This document shows, piece by piece, positions 236-20,656 of a DNA stretch of 64,000 nucleotides; position 1 is the first letter of the stretch, and each line of letters opens with the position of its first letter. Source of the DNA: Desulfurivibrionaceae bacterium (lineage in GTDB: Bacteria > Desulfobacterota > Desulfobulbia > Desulfobulbales > UBA5123); contig JAQYVW010000003.1 of NCBI GenBank assembly GCA_030145325.1, positions 1 through 64,000 of the forward strand, written 5' to 3'. The position numbers and the translations under genes were made by a program. The notes under the pieces are model-generated. The model did no database searches. It saw only the letters and a list, made by a program, of their open reading frames with translations, and was not told the DNA's origin.

Positions 236-240
236 AAAAA

Positions 241-272
241 CCGAAGTCGCCGGATAATTACGGCGACTTCGG
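241..272 (-). terminator. Intrinsic terminator of the rhodanese/cytochrome operon
   Basis: A perfect 12-bp stem (241-252 with 261-272) has an 8-nt loop. On the minus strand it is followed by seven T residues (complement of A at 234-240). It sits about 63 bp beyond the stop of the last rhodanese gene and closes the minus-strand operon. Confidence 0.9.
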
Positions 273-335
273 TAGTTGTACATTGATGCTAGTCAGCTTG
301 CCGACGATTTTGCTGTCGCCAAGGCTGTTTTGCTC

Positions 336-1280
336 TTACTTCATGAATCCCCAAGCAAACTGCTCCAATTTGACCTTCTTGTTTGGAGCGGCTTCCAGAA
401 TGGATCCGTCGTAAACCTTGACATTTGTATAACCCAACAGGTCGTGGAGAACAAAATAACCCATTGCGGCTTGCAGGCCATGGTTGCTGTAGGTGATGAT
501 TTCGGCGTTCTTATTAGCCGGGATACCAACTCCAGCGGCCATCTGGCTCAGAACCTTGGTGTCCTTCATGAAAGCAGGAGACATCTCGATACCTGCATTG
601 GACATGTAGTTTGCTGGCCACGTCCGAGCGTTGGGCAGATGACCATAACGCTTGATGTGGCTTTTCTTCTCATGTCCGAAGAACTCGGTGGAGACCCGGT
701 CGTCAAGAAAGACCGTTTTTGAGCCGATTTTTTTCTGTACCTCAGCCATGGTCGCAACCTTGCTATTGTCAAGCTTGGCTGTGAAATTACCGGCATTCAC
801 GGGAGTGACTGCCTTTTTTGAAACAGCTTTGTCTGCCTGCTCCCAAGCGGCGAAACCACCATCAAGGATGGCTACGTCGTTGTGACCAAGTACTTGCAGG
901 GTCCACAGGGCACGGGCACTCCGAGCGGTATCCATGGCGGTGATTCCTTCGTCATAAACAATGATTTTGGAATTGTTGTTAACACCGTAACCACGAAGCA
1001 TTGTTACCAGAGCGTCGGTTTTAGGCATCATGAAGCCGACAAACTGGTCATTCATGGTTTGCCAAGGGCCGAAGGCTTTGACCGCCCCCGGGATATGGTT
1101 TTTTTCGTAATGGGTGAAGTCGCCAACAGCTAGAACCACCACATTGCTCTTGTTGAGGTTCTTAGCCATCCAGTCAATACTGACCAGTGACTTGCTGCCC
1201 GCCAGGGCCGACCCCGCCGTGGTGGCGAGGATCATCACAGCGGTTAATACTACCGCCAGTTTAGCCTTACAGGTGTTCAT
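336..1280 (-). CDS. Exported rhodanese-like protein with no catalytic cysteine
   Basis: Tandem rhodanese-fold protein of 314 residues, last gene of the operon. The start at 1280 is chosen because AGGAGGA lies 8 bases upstream; a longer reading to 1334 has no such site. An N-terminal signal peptide ends near ATTAGSALA, so it acts outside the cytoplasm. Rhodanese features are clear (LDDR, GHLPNA, and YDGS near the end of the second domain). The active-site position of the C-terminal domain, Cys in its upstream neighbour (VYCNSS), is Ser here (TYSNHG), and the N-terminal domain has Asp (VYDEG). The predicted mature protein contains no cysteine at all, so it cannot form the persulfide of classical thiosulfate sulfurtransferases. 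Inference: a binding or structural partner of the neighbouring rhodanese or cytochrome. Confidence 0.85.
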   Translation of the reverse strand: MNTCKAKLAVVLTAVMILATTAGSALAGSKSLVSIDWMAKNLNKSNVVVLAVGDFTHYEKNHIPGAVKAFGPWQTMNDQFVGFMMPKTDALVTMLRGYGVNNNSKIIVYDEGITAMDTARSARALWTLQVLGHNDVAILDGGFAAWEQADKAVSKKAVTPVNAGNFTAKLDNSKVATMAEVQKKIGSKTVFLDDRVSTEFFGHEKKSHIKRYGHLPNARTWPANYMSNAGIEMSPAFMKDTKVLSQMAAGVGIPANKNAEIITYSNHGLQAAMGYFVLHDLLGYTNVKVYDGSILEAAPNKKVKLEQFAWGFMK

Positions 1281-1312
1281 TATTGTTCCTCCTGAATAGT
1301 GAAGAGAGTCTT

Positions 1313-2287
1313 CTACTTGCTCACAAAGCCCCATGAGTATTTAGCCATGGGCAGGTCTTCGTCCGCTGCGTACTCAAGCATTGAGCCGTCGTAAACGCTT
1401 ACATTCTTGTACCCCAAGACATCATGAAGCACAAAGTAGCCCAATCCAGCGAACTGGGAGGAATTACAGTAAACAATGATGTTTTCACTCTTGCTCCAAG
1501 ACCAGGGCAGTCCAACACCCTTGGCCATGGCTTTCAGATCATCCTTGTCCAGCACATAGGCCGGAGCACGGTTGATACCGCCATGGGTCATAAAGTCGGC
1601 GGGCCAGGCAAGTGATCCGGGGATATGGCCGAATCGCTCAACATCACCACGCTTCTTGAAACCAAAATGCTGGTCAGTGTTCCGCACGTCCAAGAGGATC
1701 GCGGTTTTGTTCTTGCTGCTGTTGGTGACGTCCTTGAGGCTTGCCACTTTGCTGTTATCCGGTTTGGCGACAAAATCACCAGGTGCTGGATTGGCAGGTT
1801 TTTCACCGGTTTTGGCGCTGACGAGCACTCGACCCTCAAAGGTCCATTTGGTGAAGCCACCGTTCAGGTATGAAACGTTCTTGTGACCCATGGCTTCCAT
1901 GATCCAAACAGCAGAAGTGCCCTTGGTGGCGTCACTGGTCGTGTTGCCGTGATCGTAGATGACCACATGTGAAGAAGCGTTGACTCCTAATTTTTGCAGG
2001 AGTGTAGTCATCGCTGCCGGTGAAGGCATCAGGTGACAATCGCGATCCTCGTTCATCGGTTCCCATTGTCCGTAGGGAAGGCTGACGGCACCGGGAAGGT
2101 GGCCGACGCTATAGTTAACAGCAGTTCTGACGTCAATGAGCACAAGCCCCTTGGCGTTCAGGTTTTTGGCCATCCAGTCGGTGGTGACCAGTGGAGCGGC
2201 GTTGGCCGCGGATGGCGTTGAGACGGCAAAGCCGATCAGCGCCGCCAACAGTATATACATTATAAAACCTAACGGTCTCCTGTTCAT
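1313..2287 (-). CDS. Exported rhodanese (thiosulfate/3-mercaptopyruvate sulfurtransferase family)
   Basis: Double-domain sulfurtransferase of 324 residues. Start 2287 is preceded by AAGGAGT at 7-base spacing; upstream in-frame starts lack this. A signal peptide (about residues 1-30, ending STPSAANA) sends it to the periplasm. The N-terminal domain has LIDVR and GHLPGA but no active-site Cys (VIYDHG). The C-terminal domain has LLDVR, GHIPGS and a Cys at the catalytic loop (IVYCNSSQFAG), so this copy is probably active in moving sulfane sulfur. It lies 57 bp after the multihaem cytochrome gene and 32 bp before the cysteine-less paralogue, all on one strand. The arrangement suggests periplasmic sulfur chemistry coupled to electron transfer; the substrate is unknown. 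Confidence 0.87.
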   Translation of the reverse strand: MNRRPLGFIMYILLAALIGFAVSTPSAANAAPLVTTDWMAKNLNAKGLVLIDVRTAVNYSVGHLPGAVSLPYGQWEPMNEDRDCHLMPSPAAMTTLLQKLGVNASSHVVIYDHGNTTSDATKGTSAVWIMEAMGHKNVSYLNGGFTKWTFEGRVLVSAKTGEKPANPAPGDFVAKPDNSKVASLKDVTNSSKNKTAILLDVRNTDQHFGFKKRGDVERFGHIPGSLAWPADFMTHGGINRAPAYVLDKDDLKAMAKGVGLPWSWSKSENIIVYCNSSQFAGLGYFVLHDVLGYKNVSVYDGSMLEYAADEDLPMAKYSWGFVSK

Positions 2288-2344
2288 GGAAGTACTCCTT
2301 TTAGTCCTCATTGTCTCAATTTCCATTGTCATCCCCAAAGTCTA

Positions 2345-3706
2345 TTACTTTTTAACCGGGGCAGGAATCTTATTGAAGATAATCTTCTGGTTGGCCTTGG
2401 GATCTTCTGGCACCAGATCGGTTTTCGTCAGGAAGAGTTCCTTTTGTCCGTGACATGCGTTACAGGATTGGTTCTGCTTGGTCTTACGCTGGATGCTGTG
2501 AACCGAAGCGGAGTTCCAGGTAGGCAACGCGTCATAGTTGGCAATGAGGTCTTTTGGACCAGGGCTTCCGGTCAATACGGCCTGGAAGTAGGTCAACGAG
2601 GCCAGGGAGTCTTTCTTCGCCGGAGTGTGGCGAACCAGATTGTACTTGTATGGGTTGTTGGGGGTGATATCGATGTTCTTGCCGATCTTGAAGGTAACAA
2701 GCGGATCGGACGGGAAGATCACCTTAATCTTGCCAGCTTCCTTGATATCAAGGGAGACGTGACAGTTGGCACAGTTAAAGTACTCGTTAGCATGGCAAAC
2801 CGCGCAGGCCAAGGTGCCATCTGGATGGGCATTATGCATGGCGATTCTGGATTTGCCGGATTTGGCAGCATCGGGATGACAACTTTCGCAACGAGCGGTT
2901 TCGGTGTCATAATAACGTTTGCTGTCGGCTGGTTTGGTACCGTGAAGCTGATTAGCGGTATGGCAATCAGCACAGACCATCTGTAGCTTCTCGTAATGAA
3001 CATCGGCAGTGGCGCCGAGCAGACCCCGATATTCGCCGCCGAAACGGGAACCATGGCAAGCATAACAGGTCTTCTCCATGGGTGGAGTCTTCAGAAAGCG
3101 ATGCCGGTCTAGCAGGCCACCTTTGGCTACTTCCGGCCAGGCGACATGACAGCTGCCGCAAGAGGCATGGCAGTCGTTACAGTCAAGTTTCCAGGCTGCA
3201 GGCAACAGGGTGTCACCCATTTTGTGTGGTTGGGTGATGGTGCCGACGATATCAAGGATGCCAGTCAGTTTGTAATGCATGGCATTCTTGTAAGAGGCGG
3301 CTGTATCTTCATGACATTCAGCGCAGACGCCGCCGCCACCCTCATCCGAGGGATCTTTGGTCATGTCTTTATGTGCTTCGTCCTTATCGCCGACGTTATG
3401 TCCTTTGTGGCAATTTACACAACCGATCTGGCCGTGCTCGGATTCAACGAAGTCTTTTGCTACACCGTACGTATCCCGGCCCCTCACCTGAGGGGCAGAA
3501 ACGCCTCAACCGGCGATCCCGGCCGAACTACTGGCGGCTGCGGCGCCGAAGGCGTCCATTTGGTCAAGGTCGGTGTGACACTTGATACACTCACTGCTGG
3601 ATGCTGCTTCTGCCTGGGCGGAAACCGTTCCGGCGATGCCGAACGTACACGCCAACCCAAGCAAAGCTGCACTGGTCAGAGTGAGTTTCTTTTTGCCAAT
3701 CATCAT
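2345..3706 (-). CDS. Multihaem c-type cytochrome, probable selenoprotein (in-frame UGA)
   Basis: Read through the TGA at 3506-3508, this frame gives 453 residues: a signal peptide (about 1-30, ending GTVSA), one CXXCH at 40-44, residue 67 encoded by TGA, then ten more CXXCH motifs, 11 haem sites in all. The start at 3706 follows AAGGAGG at 7-base spacing. Without readthrough, the downstream part would begin at a GTG (3487) with no ribosome site and no signal peptide, which a haem c protein needs. Both halves are in the same frame, so no indel has to be assumed. A SECIS-like hairpin lies 10-27 nt after the TGA. Known: bacterial selenocysteine insertion uses a hairpin just 3' of UGA. Inferred: an exported selenocysteine multihaem cytochrome working with the rhodaneses downstream. 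The alternative is a nonsense mutation. Confidence 0.8.
3479..3496 (-). promoter_or_regulatory. SECIS-like hairpin after the in-frame UGA
   Basis: On the minus strand the 7-bp perfect stem GCCCCTC/GAGGGGC closes a four-base AGGT loop. The GGU of the loop is at nucleotides 18-20 after the UGA. From memory, the E. coli fdhF SECIS has its GGU loop at almost the same distance (about 19-21). Stem, loop sequence and distance all fit a bacterial SECIS. Confidence 0.7.
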
Positions 3707-4308
3707 CTCTGTTCCTCCTTAAAGGTTTTGAGAAATTTGAAATCCAGTATCGTCTCCGTCGGTGCTGGATTCCTGCCATGTTACGTTAGTACTTCTGTTC
3801 ATCACCCGACCCCGTTTTGTGGACGCGGTAGGGGTTTGAGTGGTTGTTAGGTCAATCTGGCCAAGAAGATTCGGTGCACCTCCTTGTTTCAGGTTGAAAC
3901 AAAAAAAGAGAGAATTTATCGTCAATGTTATCAAGCATTTAATGTATCGTCGAAATAGATAACTAGTTTTTAAAAGAGCTTTTAGTTTCTACCACCAATG
4001 GGTGAAGGGCGCCTGTGGCAAATTGTCGCAGCTGGTGATTTTTTATAAAGTTCGGGGGGACATGATGCAGTACTTGGGTTGTTTTTTTGACTGTAGGGAT
4101 GGGGATATTTTTTAACAGAGGAATGGGGTAATAATTCACAGAGATTGTATTCTTGTTGAAAATTGCTCCCCTATATAATGATAAGGGTATCAATGGCGCA
4201 AGACTTCATGATTTCCCTAAGTACATTGAAATTTCAACGAGAGCCTATTACCCGTTAGGTGTTGCAGCCGGATCGTAGGGGGAATGTAAAATATGTCATG
4301 GGAGTGGG
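3707..4308. other. 600-bp intergenic region upstream of the cytochrome operon
   Basis: No credible gene. The stretch is AT-richer than its flanks and must contain the promoter of the minus-strand operon. A GGAGGTG sequence read on the minus strand near 3880 is not followed by a convincing frame. I could not fix a sigma-70 or sigma-54 site. Confidence 0.4.
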
Positions 4309-5065: not shown

Positions 5066-5851
5066 CTACTTGGTGCTTAAGTTATCGTAGCCCACTCGGT
5101 TCAGGATATCGCCGAACCGTTCCTTACCTTGAAATTGGGCCATGAAGAGTTTGAGGCATTCTTTTATCACCGTTAAGGCCTGCTTTGCTGAAAAAATGCC
5201 GGGTAGTTGCAGGCCAAGTTGCGGGTGGCGACCGAGTTTGCCGCCCAGAAGAATCCGGTAGCCATGTTTACCTGCCACCAAGGTGTTGGTGGGGCAATCG
5301 CGGTGACAGTGACCGCAGTAGAGGCATTTGTTGAAATCAATAACCGGCCCACGGGCAGTGAGGGTGACTGCTTCCTCGCGGCAGCTATCGACGCAACTGT
5401 TGCACTGACTGCATGGCTCGTCAGTTATGGAGGGCGGGCTTGCACCCAGAAGGCCGACGTCAACAATCTGTGGTCGTGAGCATCCATTGGGACAGTCGGA
5501 GATTGAGATGCGGAACTCATGGTGCATCTTTAGTGGCCCCTTGACCTTTGTTTGCAGAAATCTTTTGAGATCAAGGGCGTTGAGGTGTTCTTCGATGCGA
5601 GCAGCAAGACCGTCGTCGTCACCGATGCGGTTGGGACAGCCGGAAGGGCCGAAACAGTTGTCCACCTGGTACCCCTTGACCTCGGCTTCCATGTTGCCTA
5701 AGTAGCGGGCTTGGGCGCTGTGTAGATGGGCGATCGATACCTTGTTGCTGCCGCTTTTACGTGCTTCCGCCTCTACTTTTTTTCGTACTCGTGAGCGAAC
5801 AAAAAAAGGCACCTTGCCAATGGCCGCGCTTGCGTCTTCACTCCATTCCAT
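5066..5851 (-). CDS. Siroheme/4Fe-4S sulfite-reductase-like protein with ferredoxin domain
   Basis: Cytoplasmic 261-residue redox protein. The start at 5851 is chosen for GGAGG eight bases upstream; a longer frame to 5932 lacks one. The N-terminus (about 1-45, MEWSEDA...VPFFVRSRVRKKVE) resembles the small PCP_red domain. Then come the two paired cysteine motifs that hold the coupled siroheme-4Fe-4S centre, CFGPSGC and CPNGC. The C-terminal third is a 2[4Fe-4S] ferredoxin (CSQCNSCVDSC and CLYCGHCHRDCP). Such compact proteins are related to dissimilatory and assimilatory sulfite/nitrite reductases; their substrate is generally unproven. It is the third minus-strand gene after the sugar-phosphate pair, about 95 bp from the glycosyltransferase stop, so co-transcription is possible but not certain. 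Confidence 0.85.
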   Translation of the reverse strand: MEWSEDASAAIGKVPFFVRSRVRKKVEAEARKSGSNKVSIAHLHSAQARYLGNMEAEVKGYQVDNCFGPSGCPNRIGDDDGLAARIEEHLNALDLKRFLQTKVKGPLKMHHEFRISISDCPNGCSRPQIVDVGLLGASPPSITDEPCSQCNSCVDSCREEAVTLTARGPVIDFNKCLYCGHCHRDCPTNTLVAGKHGYRILLGGKLGRHPQLGLQLPGIFSAKQALTVIKECLKLFMAQFQGKERFGDILNRVGYDNLSTK

Positions 5852-5946
5852 GCCCAAAACCTCCATTGTTAAGCAAAAGTTTCCAAGATGAAGATAGCAA
5901 AGCGGTTCTCGGCGCGCCTTGACCCAGGTCAAGGAAGAGGAAATCC

Positions 5947-18112: not shown

Positions 18113-20656
18113 ATGCGATTTTGTAAATATTGTCTTTGCTTGTTGTTGTTTTTAGCCTTCCTGCCTCGTCCTTGTGCAGGGGAAAGTGTCGATACCTCTT
18201 GGCCTGCCGAGGGGGGGGGCGCCCAGCAGCCTCCGCCTGGGATCAGCTATATCCTGCGCGGTGAGGCCATGGCGCGAAGCGGTGATCCCTTTGCTGCCAT
18301 TAACGAATATCGCAAGGCCATTGCGGCGGGGTATAGTGGTTCCGATGTTTTTCGCAGTCTTTCCACGGTTCTCTATCTGGCCGGGTTTACCAATGAAGCC
18401 ATTGATGCTCTGAAGGAGGCGGTTCGCCTTCACCCCAAGGAAGTGTTTCCACGCCAGGAATTGGCTGTTCTTTACTTTGCCGCCGGGAGGAATGATGAGG
18501 CAAAGGATACTTTCCGAAGTGTTCTTGCCGAGAATCCCACTCTGGCAAATCCCTACTATTACCTCGGCCTTATCGCTTTTCAGCAAGATGACTTTGACGA
18601 CGCCTGGTTGTTTGCCCGGCGCGCGCAGTTACTTGGTCATAAGGCGCATTCATTGTTGGATAAATTGGTGGCAGAGGGCAATGAGCCGTTGGTTGACCAA
18701 CAAGAACCCATTGGTGACGATCTTTGTTTTAGGCAGATCCTGGTTTCTTCCTTTGAGGAGGCCGAAGGCCTTCTCTCTCGAATCAAGCGTGGCGAGATGT
18801 TTGAGGTTTTGGCCTCTTTGTCATCCATGGATCCTTCAGCTGAAAACGGTGGTTTTGTCGGCTGCCTTTTCCCTGATGAAATTGATCCGGTGTTGGGGGC
18901 GGCATTATGGCAAAAGAAGGCCTATGCCGAACCGACTATAGTTGAAACTACTCGCGGAAGTCATCTGATGCAACGGGTGCAGTCTTTTGATCCGGAACTT
19001 TGGCGGATTCAGATTGCGGCCTTGAAACATCCCAAACCGGTGCGATCAGCCTCCCTTGTGCAGAGAGATGACGGTGGCGAAGGTCGATACGTTGTCCATG
19101 CCGGAACCTATAATGGCCCGTTGTTGGCAGCATCAATGGTTTCCAGGTTGCGTGATACTAAGTTCCCAGCCTATTTCTATACCTCTCCCGGCAAGAAGGG
19201 TGGTTTGATTTATCAGGTGGTAGCAGGCCGTTTTGCCGGTAAAGCTGATGCCAAGGCGGCGGCTAAGCGTCTTAATGCCATTGGGGTTAAGAATTTTATT
19301 GTTACCGCCGCAGAAGAATCCCAGCAGAAATCAGATAAGGACGTAAATAAAGCAAAGGTAGCGAAGGCTGCGGCCGAAGCGAAGAAACTCGAGGTTGCTA
19401 GGGCCGCGCAGGCCGCCAAGGAAGCAAAGGCGGCGAAGGCTGTGGCAGAAGCGAAGAAAGTCGAGGTTGCTAGAGCGGCGCAGGCTGCCAAGGAAGCAGA
19501 GGCGGCGAAGGCTGTGGCCGAAGCGAAGAAAGTCGAGGTTGCCAGGGCCGCGCAGGCTGCCAAGGAAGCAAAGGCGGCGAAGGCTGTGGCAGAAGCGAAG
19601 GAGGCCGAGGTTGCCAGGGCCGCGCAGGCCGTCAAGGAAGCAGAGGCGGCGAAGGCTGTGGCAGAAGCGAAGGAAGCCGAGGTTGCCAAGGAAGCAAAGG
19701 CGGCGAAGGCTGTGGCCGAAGCGAAGAAAGTCGAGGTTGCCAGGGCTGCGCAGGCCGCCAAGGAAGTAGAGGCGGCGAAGGCTGCGGCCGAAGCGAAGAA
19801 AGTCGAGGTTGCTAGAGCGGCGCAGGCTGCCAAGGAAGCAGGGGTAGCGAAGGCTGCGGCAGAAGCGAAGGAAGCCGAGGTTGCCAGAGCAGCGCAGGTT
19901 GCCAATGAAGCAGAGGCAGCGAAGGTTGCGGCAGAGACGACTATAGCCAATGTTCTCCAAGAAGTGCAGGCTGCCTGGGAAATTAGGATCGCAGGAGACG
20001 GGCAGGCTGCCAAGGAAGCTAAGGCGGCAAAGGTAGAGGCCGAGGCCAAGGGGGCAAAGGCCGAAGGGGTACCGGCAGGGGCGAGGAAAGTGAATGTTGC
20101 CAGAGAAGCGCTCGCTGCCTGGGAAGCAAGGGTAGAGGCAGAGTCGAAGAAAGCCACGGCTGCCCATGTTGTGCCGGTGGTCAAGAGTGTAAAGGGCGAG
20201 GTTGAGGCTAAGGAAGCCAAGGCCACCCGAGTACCGCCGGTTGTCAAGGAGGCAAAGGCCGGAAAGGTCGTGGCTGCAGCGAGGAAAGTCAAGGTTCCCC
20301 CTGTTGTGCCGGTGGCCAAGAAAGCAAAGGCGGCTAAGGGGGGCGAGGTTGTAAAACCTGAGGCTCAGCCCGTTTCACCGCTTGGTGCCTTAATTATTGA
20401 AGTGAAGAAGAATGAGCCGGTTGGCAAATACACCGTCCATGCCGGAACCTCCAATAATCGGGGCAAGACGGAGGAGATTATCACCCGCATGCGCAAGGCT
20501 GGATTGCCTGCCTTTTCCTATCGCTCTAAAACCAACAAAGGGGCGCCTGTTTACCGACTGGTGGGAGGTCGCTACAATAAGATGAAAGAGGCCAGGGCTG
20601 CCCATCGCCATCTTGCCGAAATCGGGATTAAAACCTTTATTGCCAACACCAAATAA
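18113..20656 (+). CDS. Exported TPR / parvulin-like / SPOR protein with Ala-Lys repeat helix
   Basis: An 847-residue exported protein. Order of parts: signal peptide (1-23), three or four TPR-like repeats (about 45-190), a parvulin-type PpiC-like segment (about 203-290; FRQILVSS, GEMFEVLASLSSMDPSAENGG, GSHLMQRVQ), a first SPOR domain (about 325-398; YVVHAGTYNGPLLAASMVSRL), a long Ala/Lys/Glu region (about 415-755), and a second SPOR domain (about 772-845). SPOR domains bind glycan strands stripped of stem peptides, so the protein should sit on septal or remodelled peptidoglycan, with the charged helix as a spacer. I do not recognise this whole architecture as a named protein. A terminator follows at 20778. 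Confidence 0.75.
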   Translation: MRFCKYCLCLLLFLAFLPRPCAGESVDTSWPAEGGGAQQPPPGISYILRGEAMARSGDPFAAINEYRKAIAAGYSGSDVFRSLSTVLYLAGFTNEAIDALKEAVRLHPKEVFPRQELAVLYFAAGRNDEAKDTFRSVLAENPTLANPYYYLGLIAFQQDDFDDAWLFARRAQLLGHKAHSLLDKLVAEGNEPLVDQQEPIGDDLCFRQILVSSFEEAEGLLSRIKRGEMFEVLASLSSMDPSAENGGFVGCLFPDEIDPVLGAALWQKKAYAEPTIVETTRGSHLMQRVQSFDPELWRIQIAALKHPKPVRSASLVQRDDGGEGRYVVHAGTYNGPLLAASMVSRLRDTKFPAYFYTSPGKKGGLIYQVVAGRFAGKADAKAAAKRLNAIGVKNFIVTAAEESQQKSDKDVNKAKVAKAAAEAKKLEVARAAQAAKEAKAAKAVAEAKKVEVARAAQAAKEAEAAKAVAEAKKVEVARAAQAAKEAKAAKAVAEAKEAEVARAAQAVKEAEAAKAVAEAKEAEVAKEAKAAKAVAEAKKVEVARAAQAAKEVEAAKAAAEAKKVEVARAAQAAKEAGVAKAAAEAKEAEVARAAQVANEAEAAKVAAETTIANVLQEVQAAWEIRIAGDGQAAKEAKAAKVEAEAKGAKAEGVPAGARKVNVAREALAAWEARVEAESKKATAAHVVPVVKSVKGEVEAKEAKATRVPPVVKEAKAGKVVAAARKVKVPPVVPVAKKAKAAKGGEVVKPEAQPVSPLGALIIEVKKNEPVGKYTVHAGTSNNRGKTEEIITRMRKAGLPAFSYRSKTNKGAPVYRLVGGRYNKMKEARAAHRHLAEIGIKTFIANTK
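19361..19940 (+). repeat. In-frame 72-bp tandem repeats (24-residue Ala/Lys units)
   Basis: Units begin with GCGAAGGYTG at 19361, 19433, 19505, 19577, 19649, 19703, 19775, 19847 and 19919. The spacing is 72 bp throughout except one 54-bp unit that lacks six codons. Each unit encodes 24 residues of the AKAVAEAKKVEVARAAQAAK type, predicted to form a continuous charged helix. Confidence 0.92.

Follow-up and report, generated by a model that had tools for sequence, protein, structure and literature searches.

The stretch of DNA analysed here, referred to as the window, comprises positions 1-64,000 of contig JAQYVW010000003.1 from a Desulfurivibrionaceae bacterium (assembly GCA_030145325.1) and carries three consecutive minus-strand genes for a multihaem c-type cytochrome and two rhodaneses, RhoA and RhoB, each of whose products begins, by inspection, with a signal-peptide-like stretch. 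An earlier note on the window had described the three genes as sharing one strand, strong ribosome sites and one terminator, a layout that was borne out (the ribosome sites are of the GGAG type, and a 13-bp hairpin with a T-run closes the operon); it had made no remark on a single in-frame TGA in the cytochrome gene. Under translation table 11 the gene is not one open frame: the first 66 codons encode the signal peptide and haem 1, the TGA comes next, and another 386 codons, still in frame, supply ten further CxxCH motifs. As judged from genomic comparisons, the cytochrome represents a previously undescribed, predicted selenoprotein family within the multihaem cytochromes distantly related to octahaem tetrathionate reductase (OTR), and this family is coupled to rhodanese.

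The interruption is not peculiar to this genome. The initial comparison covered 12 orthologues, each of which has the UGA. An ortholog scan that took a single genome for each species recovered 11 clear orthologues (64-89% identity), in every one of which the TGA occupies the same codon, within AG-U-GV[ST]APQVRGRD. Whole-genome searches of the same order yielded 18 genomes with the 450-residue form and one TGA, 20 more matches to a longer form (mostly about 710 residues), likewise with one TGA, and 12 long matches that lack it, making 38 match rows in all with one TGA. In a phylum-wide draw of 395 genomes, one in-frame TGA was present in 49 of 53 match rows, and in the phylum members examined it falls, past haem 1, within an aligned GxGU[GA]G motif. 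A frameshift or pseudogene was ruled out by the shared frame and the conservation in all orthologues.

Just 3' of the UGA lies a hairpin that resembles a selenocysteine insertion sequence (SECIS) element; in the window it has a core stem of GCCCCTC and GAGGGGC (3496-3479), an apical loop AGGT and a G about 18 nt past the UGA. The predicted apical loop begins 17-19 nt past the UGA, with a G within its first two bases, in 54 of 58 members, and this loop-G hairpin geometry fits the published description of bacterial SECIS elements. Among 24 distant members, pairing holds in 94.8% of the cells of the 8-bp stem, four of whose pairs are altered on both sides (13 double-change cells); the covariation score was reached by none of 500 shuffles, and a one-base shift of the partner abolishes the pairing signal. 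Consensus folding of 12 near orthologues gave zero double changes, which did appear in the wider member set. The host genome encodes both tRNA-Sec (74.9 bits) and SelB (382 bits); tRNA-Sec is found in nearly every genome of the order, including most of those with a Tyr variant of the cytochrome, and its co-occurrence is thus not discriminating. Because the UGA is conserved, the SECIS-like hairpin covaries and the genome possesses tRNA-Sec together with SelB, the codon is almost certainly read as selenocysteine (Sec67). Two more in-frame TGA codons in the window, at 18411 and 46832 on the plus strand, have long frames on both sides and a hairpin that passes a crude SECIS filter; they are probably due to chance.

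Features of the cytochrome-rhodanese locus, in window coordinates
Feature	Position	Strand	Basis
c-type cytochrome gene, 11 haems; 453 aa on readthrough of one UGA, predicted Sec67 included	2345..3706	-	CxxCH count, family alignment
RhoA, exported tandem-domain rhodanese	1313..2287	-	Pfam, loop motifs
RhoB, exported tandem-domain rhodanese, Ser at catalytic position	336..1280	-	Pfam, loop motifs, orthologues
In-frame TGA, codon 67, AG-U-GVSAPQVRGRD	3506..3508	-	Position matched in all orthologues and most distant homologues
SECIS-like hairpin just 3' of the UGA	3469..3504	-	Folding, covariation
Intrinsic terminator-like hairpin, 13 pairs and T-run, operon end	240..273	-	Hairpin found in sequence
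Ribosome binding site GGAGG, cytochrome gene	3714..3719	-	By inspection
Ribosome binding site AGGAG, rhoA	2293..2302	-	By inspection
Ribosome binding site AGGAGG, rhoB	1288..1293	-	By inspection

Read through the UGA, the cytochromes are uniform in their haem content, with exactly eleven CxxCH motifs in all 65 family members and nine further invariant or near-invariant His residues in the family alignment; the Pfam domains detected are Cytochrome_C7, Cytochrom_c3_2 and MtrC-like. In the cytochromes of loci L003-L008 there are 22 Cys, that is, 11 x 2, every one of them in a haem motif, and Sec67 would therefore be the sole free chalcogenol of the protein. An AlphaFold model, built without haem, has a predicted local distance difference test (pLDDT) score of 80.5 and falls below 50 in the Sec loop (residues 58-70), which is consistent with a mobile arm. 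While Foldseek alone returned no significant PDB match for this model, VIA-align placed OTR (1sp3) as the nearest solved fold (Z 9.8 over 276 residues, root-mean-square deviation 4.5, 20% identity), followed at much lower Z by HAO, OcwA and MccA. Profile alignment with hhalign maps cytochrome haems 3-9 onto OTR haems 1-7 (probability 98%, E 7e-14), so that haems 1 and 2, together with the Sec arm, constitute an N-terminal addition.

In a maximum-likelihood tree of the family, rooted at the midpoint and thus giving only an inferred direction of change, cytochromes of the trio type form one clade (100/100), fusions that carry Sec form another (100/99), and fusions with Tyr or Cys at the site form a single clade (100/100) beside these two. 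Only one homologue has Cys aligned with Sec (L068), Tyr being found in most non-Sec homologues. Since Sec is present everywhere else in the tree, the topology suggests one loss of Sec in the Tyr/Cys clade rather than repeated gains, a loss not forced by disappearance of the machinery, as tRNA-Sec is kept in most genomes of the Tyr clade. The Tyr/Cys fusions of the same order (L064-L070, L081-L083) mostly adjoin a gene for a DUF3373 protein, which recalls the porin ExtI.

Each rhodanese contains two rhodanese stretches (Pfam, PF00581). RhoA has in the loop of its C-terminal domain the catalytic Cys of an active rhodanese (IIVYCNSS), and Asp in that of its N-terminal domain (VVIYDHGN); in RhoB this Cys is replaced by Ser (IITYSNHG). 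The earlier note's pairing of a live and a dead sulfurtransferase thus holds: the same loop position is Cys in 11 of 11 RhoA and Ser in 11 of 11 RhoB orthologues, further loci with a complete second gene agree, and the substitution is accordingly not random among homologues. Its description of RhoB as free of mature cysteine is correct for the window, where the sole Cys is residue 4, in the signal peptide, and does not extend to the orthologues of L008, L009, L010 and L012, which have mature Cys, such that total Cys loss characterises only some orthologues. Its sequence marks RhoB as a pseudo-enzyme conserved in the trio clade, where it probably acts as a non-catalytic partner or binding subunit. 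Conservation of the trio among relatives, which the same note had singled out for checking, was likewise found wherever the contig around an orthologous locus was long enough (L002-L010, L012, L076-L080, L122, L123).

Beyond the trio clade, the association with rhodanese takes other forms. The long forms are fusions: after the 11-haem domain comes a tandem rhodanese whose Cys loop is of the active type (CNTG). Among the 65 members, 20 are fused to rhodanese, 37 have a rhodanese within 300 nt downstream and 2 more within 464 nt; linkage or fusion is accordingly seen in 59 of 62 informative loci from many families of the phylum (3 loci are cut by contig ends), and a fused or close downstream rhodanese was not found in the remaining 3 of 62. 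This exceeds the conservation that the earlier note had called for. With the exception of RhoB, the linked rhodaneses, comprising RhoA, those in fusions and single-rhodanese neighbours, have a catalytic-type Cys loop in most cases in which a motif scan located the loop. From this pattern of linkage, functional coupling of cytochrome and rhodanese can be regarded as very probable, and the live/dead pair is a local elaboration, a single rhodanese being present in most of the family. In one further locus (L128 / L160; G605 contig 136, 322-4041), an OTR gene without a TGA lies directly upstream of the selenocytochrome and rhodanese genes.

Several described systems resemble this one in part. Among prokaryotic selenoproteins, a 2026 review (PMC13188914) includes two cytochromes of the multihaem type: ExtKL (NF040886) and an octahaem form, TIGR04315. 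ExtKL, a predicted selenoprotein encoded with the rhodanese ExtH in Geobacter (extHIJKL), is likewise a multihaem c-type cytochrome with an in-frame UGA and an exported rhodanese in its cluster (PMC5877670, PMC6148476). It has, however, 5 haems and places Sec in a C-terminal segment past the haems (GHVIPDGUPTP), whereas the trio cytochrome carries Sec between the first and second of its 11 haems, and the two families occur in largely different sets of genomes. The trio cytochrome gave no match to NF040886 (cut-off 250 bits), for which the only match elsewhere in the genome scores 20.8 bits; membership in ExtKL was ruled out by model score and Sec position. OTR (TIGR04315, PDB 1sp3) is the best structural relative and shares a homologous haem core over cytochrome haems 3-9, but the trio cytochrome reaches only 29.9-31.1 bits against a TIGR04315 cut-off of 375 and differs in its extra haems 1, 2 and 10 and its rhodanese partner. 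An in-frame UGA, in N[NS][FY]U, likewise occurs in some TIGR04315 members, of which Sec-containing ones are listed in GenBank; such members are present in many genomes of the phylum and are distant homologues of the trio cytochrome. A simple homology between Sec67 and the Cys/Sec position of OTR is not supported, as Sec67 lies N-terminal to the OTR core in the profile alignment. In full-length TIGR04315 homologues (L147, L151, L152, L157, L158, L161, L163, L165, L168), this TGA immediately precedes haem 2, in the motif N[NS][FY]-U-[IVM], and others have Cys at the site (L145, NNFCI); of the phylum's TIGR04315 matches that exceed the cut-off, approximately 30 contain one TGA.

Dethiobacter alkaliphilus encodes a SirA/OTR-like cytochrome, DealDRAFT_1917, that is clustered with rhodanese genes and upregulated on thiosulfate (PMC10376724). 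Compared by description only, it differs in being octahaem and in having no reported selenocysteine; the cluster gives an independent hint at a sulfur function. RhoA and RhoB share the tandem rhodanese architecture of the 3-mercaptopyruvate/thiosulfate sulfurtransferases (PF00581) and are set apart by the Ser of RhoB, by being exported and cytochrome-linked, and by scores far below the NCBIfam cut-offs. No NCBIfam model claims the undecahaem cytochrome family, and an undecahaem selenocytochrome was not found in literature searches, in which the families of Haft and Tolstoy (2025) were represented through a review's listing.

Taken together, these comparisons favour, by a modest degree, a periplasmic undecahaem cytochrome whose Sec67 works with two rhodanese partners in sulfane-sulfur exchange and haem electron transfer. 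The catalytic Cys of RhoA would accept sulfane sulfur from thiosulfate, polysulfide or a persulfide; the selenolate of Sec67, borne on a Gly/Ala/Ser-rich flexible arm past haem 1, would exchange that sulfur with RhoA as a selenenyl-sulfide (Se-S); and the haem chain would move electrons to or from the Se-S bond, by which sulfane sulfur could be reduced to sulfide or, in the opposite direction, formed from sulfide by oxidation. RhoB, its Cys replaced by Ser, would be unable to carry a persulfide at that position and most likely binds RhoA, the cytochrome or a sulfur anion. That the closest solved fold belongs to OTR, a family of sulfur-compound reductases, and that the host genome encodes DsrA also count in favour of this reading. 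The Se-S relay itself is evenly poised between being right and wrong. The sulfane-sulfur relay with electron transfer that the earlier note had proposed remains the best reading and is strengthened by the rhodanese-cytochrome fusions of the order; what that proposal missed was the decisive UGA and its selenocysteine. Confidence in any specific substrate or pathway, disproportionation included, is low.

Several observations weigh against this interpretation. The evidence is genomic and comes largely from metagenome-assembled genomes, and synonymous sites past the UGA show no more than modest constraint, with equal conservation in 10 of the 162 windows elsewhere. One rhodanese-fusion clade has Tyr (Cys in L068) at the Sec position, and because Tyr cannot carry sulfane sulfur, an Se-S relay is not obligatory for all members. 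Lastly, a model of the fusion protein has a pLDDT of 61, its haem part being too poor for a Sec-Cys contact to be judged.

The best-placed alternative, though an unlikely one, is that Sec67 serves as a haem-iron ligand or tunes a catalytic haem at which sulfite, tetrathionate, polysulfide or a nitrogen oxide is reduced as in OTR, with rhodanese only supplying or removing sulfur. Sec, Cys and Tyr, which interchange at this site, can all ligate haem iron, and with 9 conserved non-motif His for 11 haems, some haems are left without a conserved His partner; the fold match to OTR, HAO and MccA points the same way, and in the Tyr variants the site must work otherwise, or Sec may be partly a haem ligand or modulator. 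Nevertheless, the Sec loop is Gly-rich and predicted, in the haem-free model, to be disordered rather than packed, and the near-obligate rhodanese favours sulfur chemistry at the chalcogenol. Less probable still is a unit for the reduction of selenium or tellurium oxyanions, as proposed for the Geobacter ext cluster, in which the predicted Sec cytochrome ExtKL lies with the rhodanese ExtH and the porin ExtI and mutation of extI impairs the reduction of selenite/tellurite (PMC5877670). RhoA and RhoB do match the ExtH model weakly, and the DUF3373 neighbour of the Tyr fusions could be counted in its favour; the cytochrome nonetheless falls outside ExtKL, no further ext genes turned up next to the trio, and the hosts are sulfur-cycling Desulfobulbales. 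Very improbable, finally, is a true stop, as in the standard table-11 reading, that would leave a 66-residue one-haem peptide and a 10-haem protein either unmade (a pseudogene) or re-initiated at GTG 3487: this GTG, 7 codons past the UGA and inside the hairpin loop, is GTT, GTC or GTA in relatives, which excludes re-initiation there as a general mechanism, its product would be without a signal peptide, and in the majority of some 60 members the UGA stays at a single position of the alignment, with protein conserved on both sides, a covarying stem and the Sec machinery present.

Upstream of the trio and on the same strand, at 5066-5932 (minus), the window encodes a small sulfite-reductase-like protein with, by inspection, two 4Fe-4S-type Cys motifs and a weak match to the DsrA model. 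DsrA is encoded in the host genome, and the named relatives belong to Desulfobulbales and other Desulfobacterota. A DUF3034 protein, barrel-like by inspection, is encoded near the trio in four loci (L002, 4312-5184; L008, 10155-11030; L009, 10166-11041; L010, 10151-11029).

In Desulfobulbales, knowledge of the enzymes that first handle sulfur in thiosulfate and sulfur metabolism is incomplete, and no unambiguous marker gene for disproportionation emerged from a recent survey (PMC12998232); periplasmic sulfane-sulfur redox chemistry has a concrete candidate in the conserved Sec-cytochrome/rhodanese unit. Because standard gene callers cut the cytochrome in two at the UGA, metagenomic surveys will miscount or miss the family, which would add to the selenoproteome a multihaem cytochrome family absent from the 2026 list (PMC13188914). 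The Sec/Cys/Tyr series at one site also provides a setting in which to ask why selenium is used. More tentatively, and with chances slightly short of even, Sec on a swinging Gly-rich arm may trade sulfane sulfur with a dedicated or fused rhodanese, constituting a sulfur oxidoreductase, widespread in Desulfobacterota, that is haem-wired, depends on selenium and contains no molybdenum. The pairing of cytochrome and rhodanese recurs across the phylum and points to a selenium-dependent route for sulfur atoms and electrons that has so far gone undescribed.

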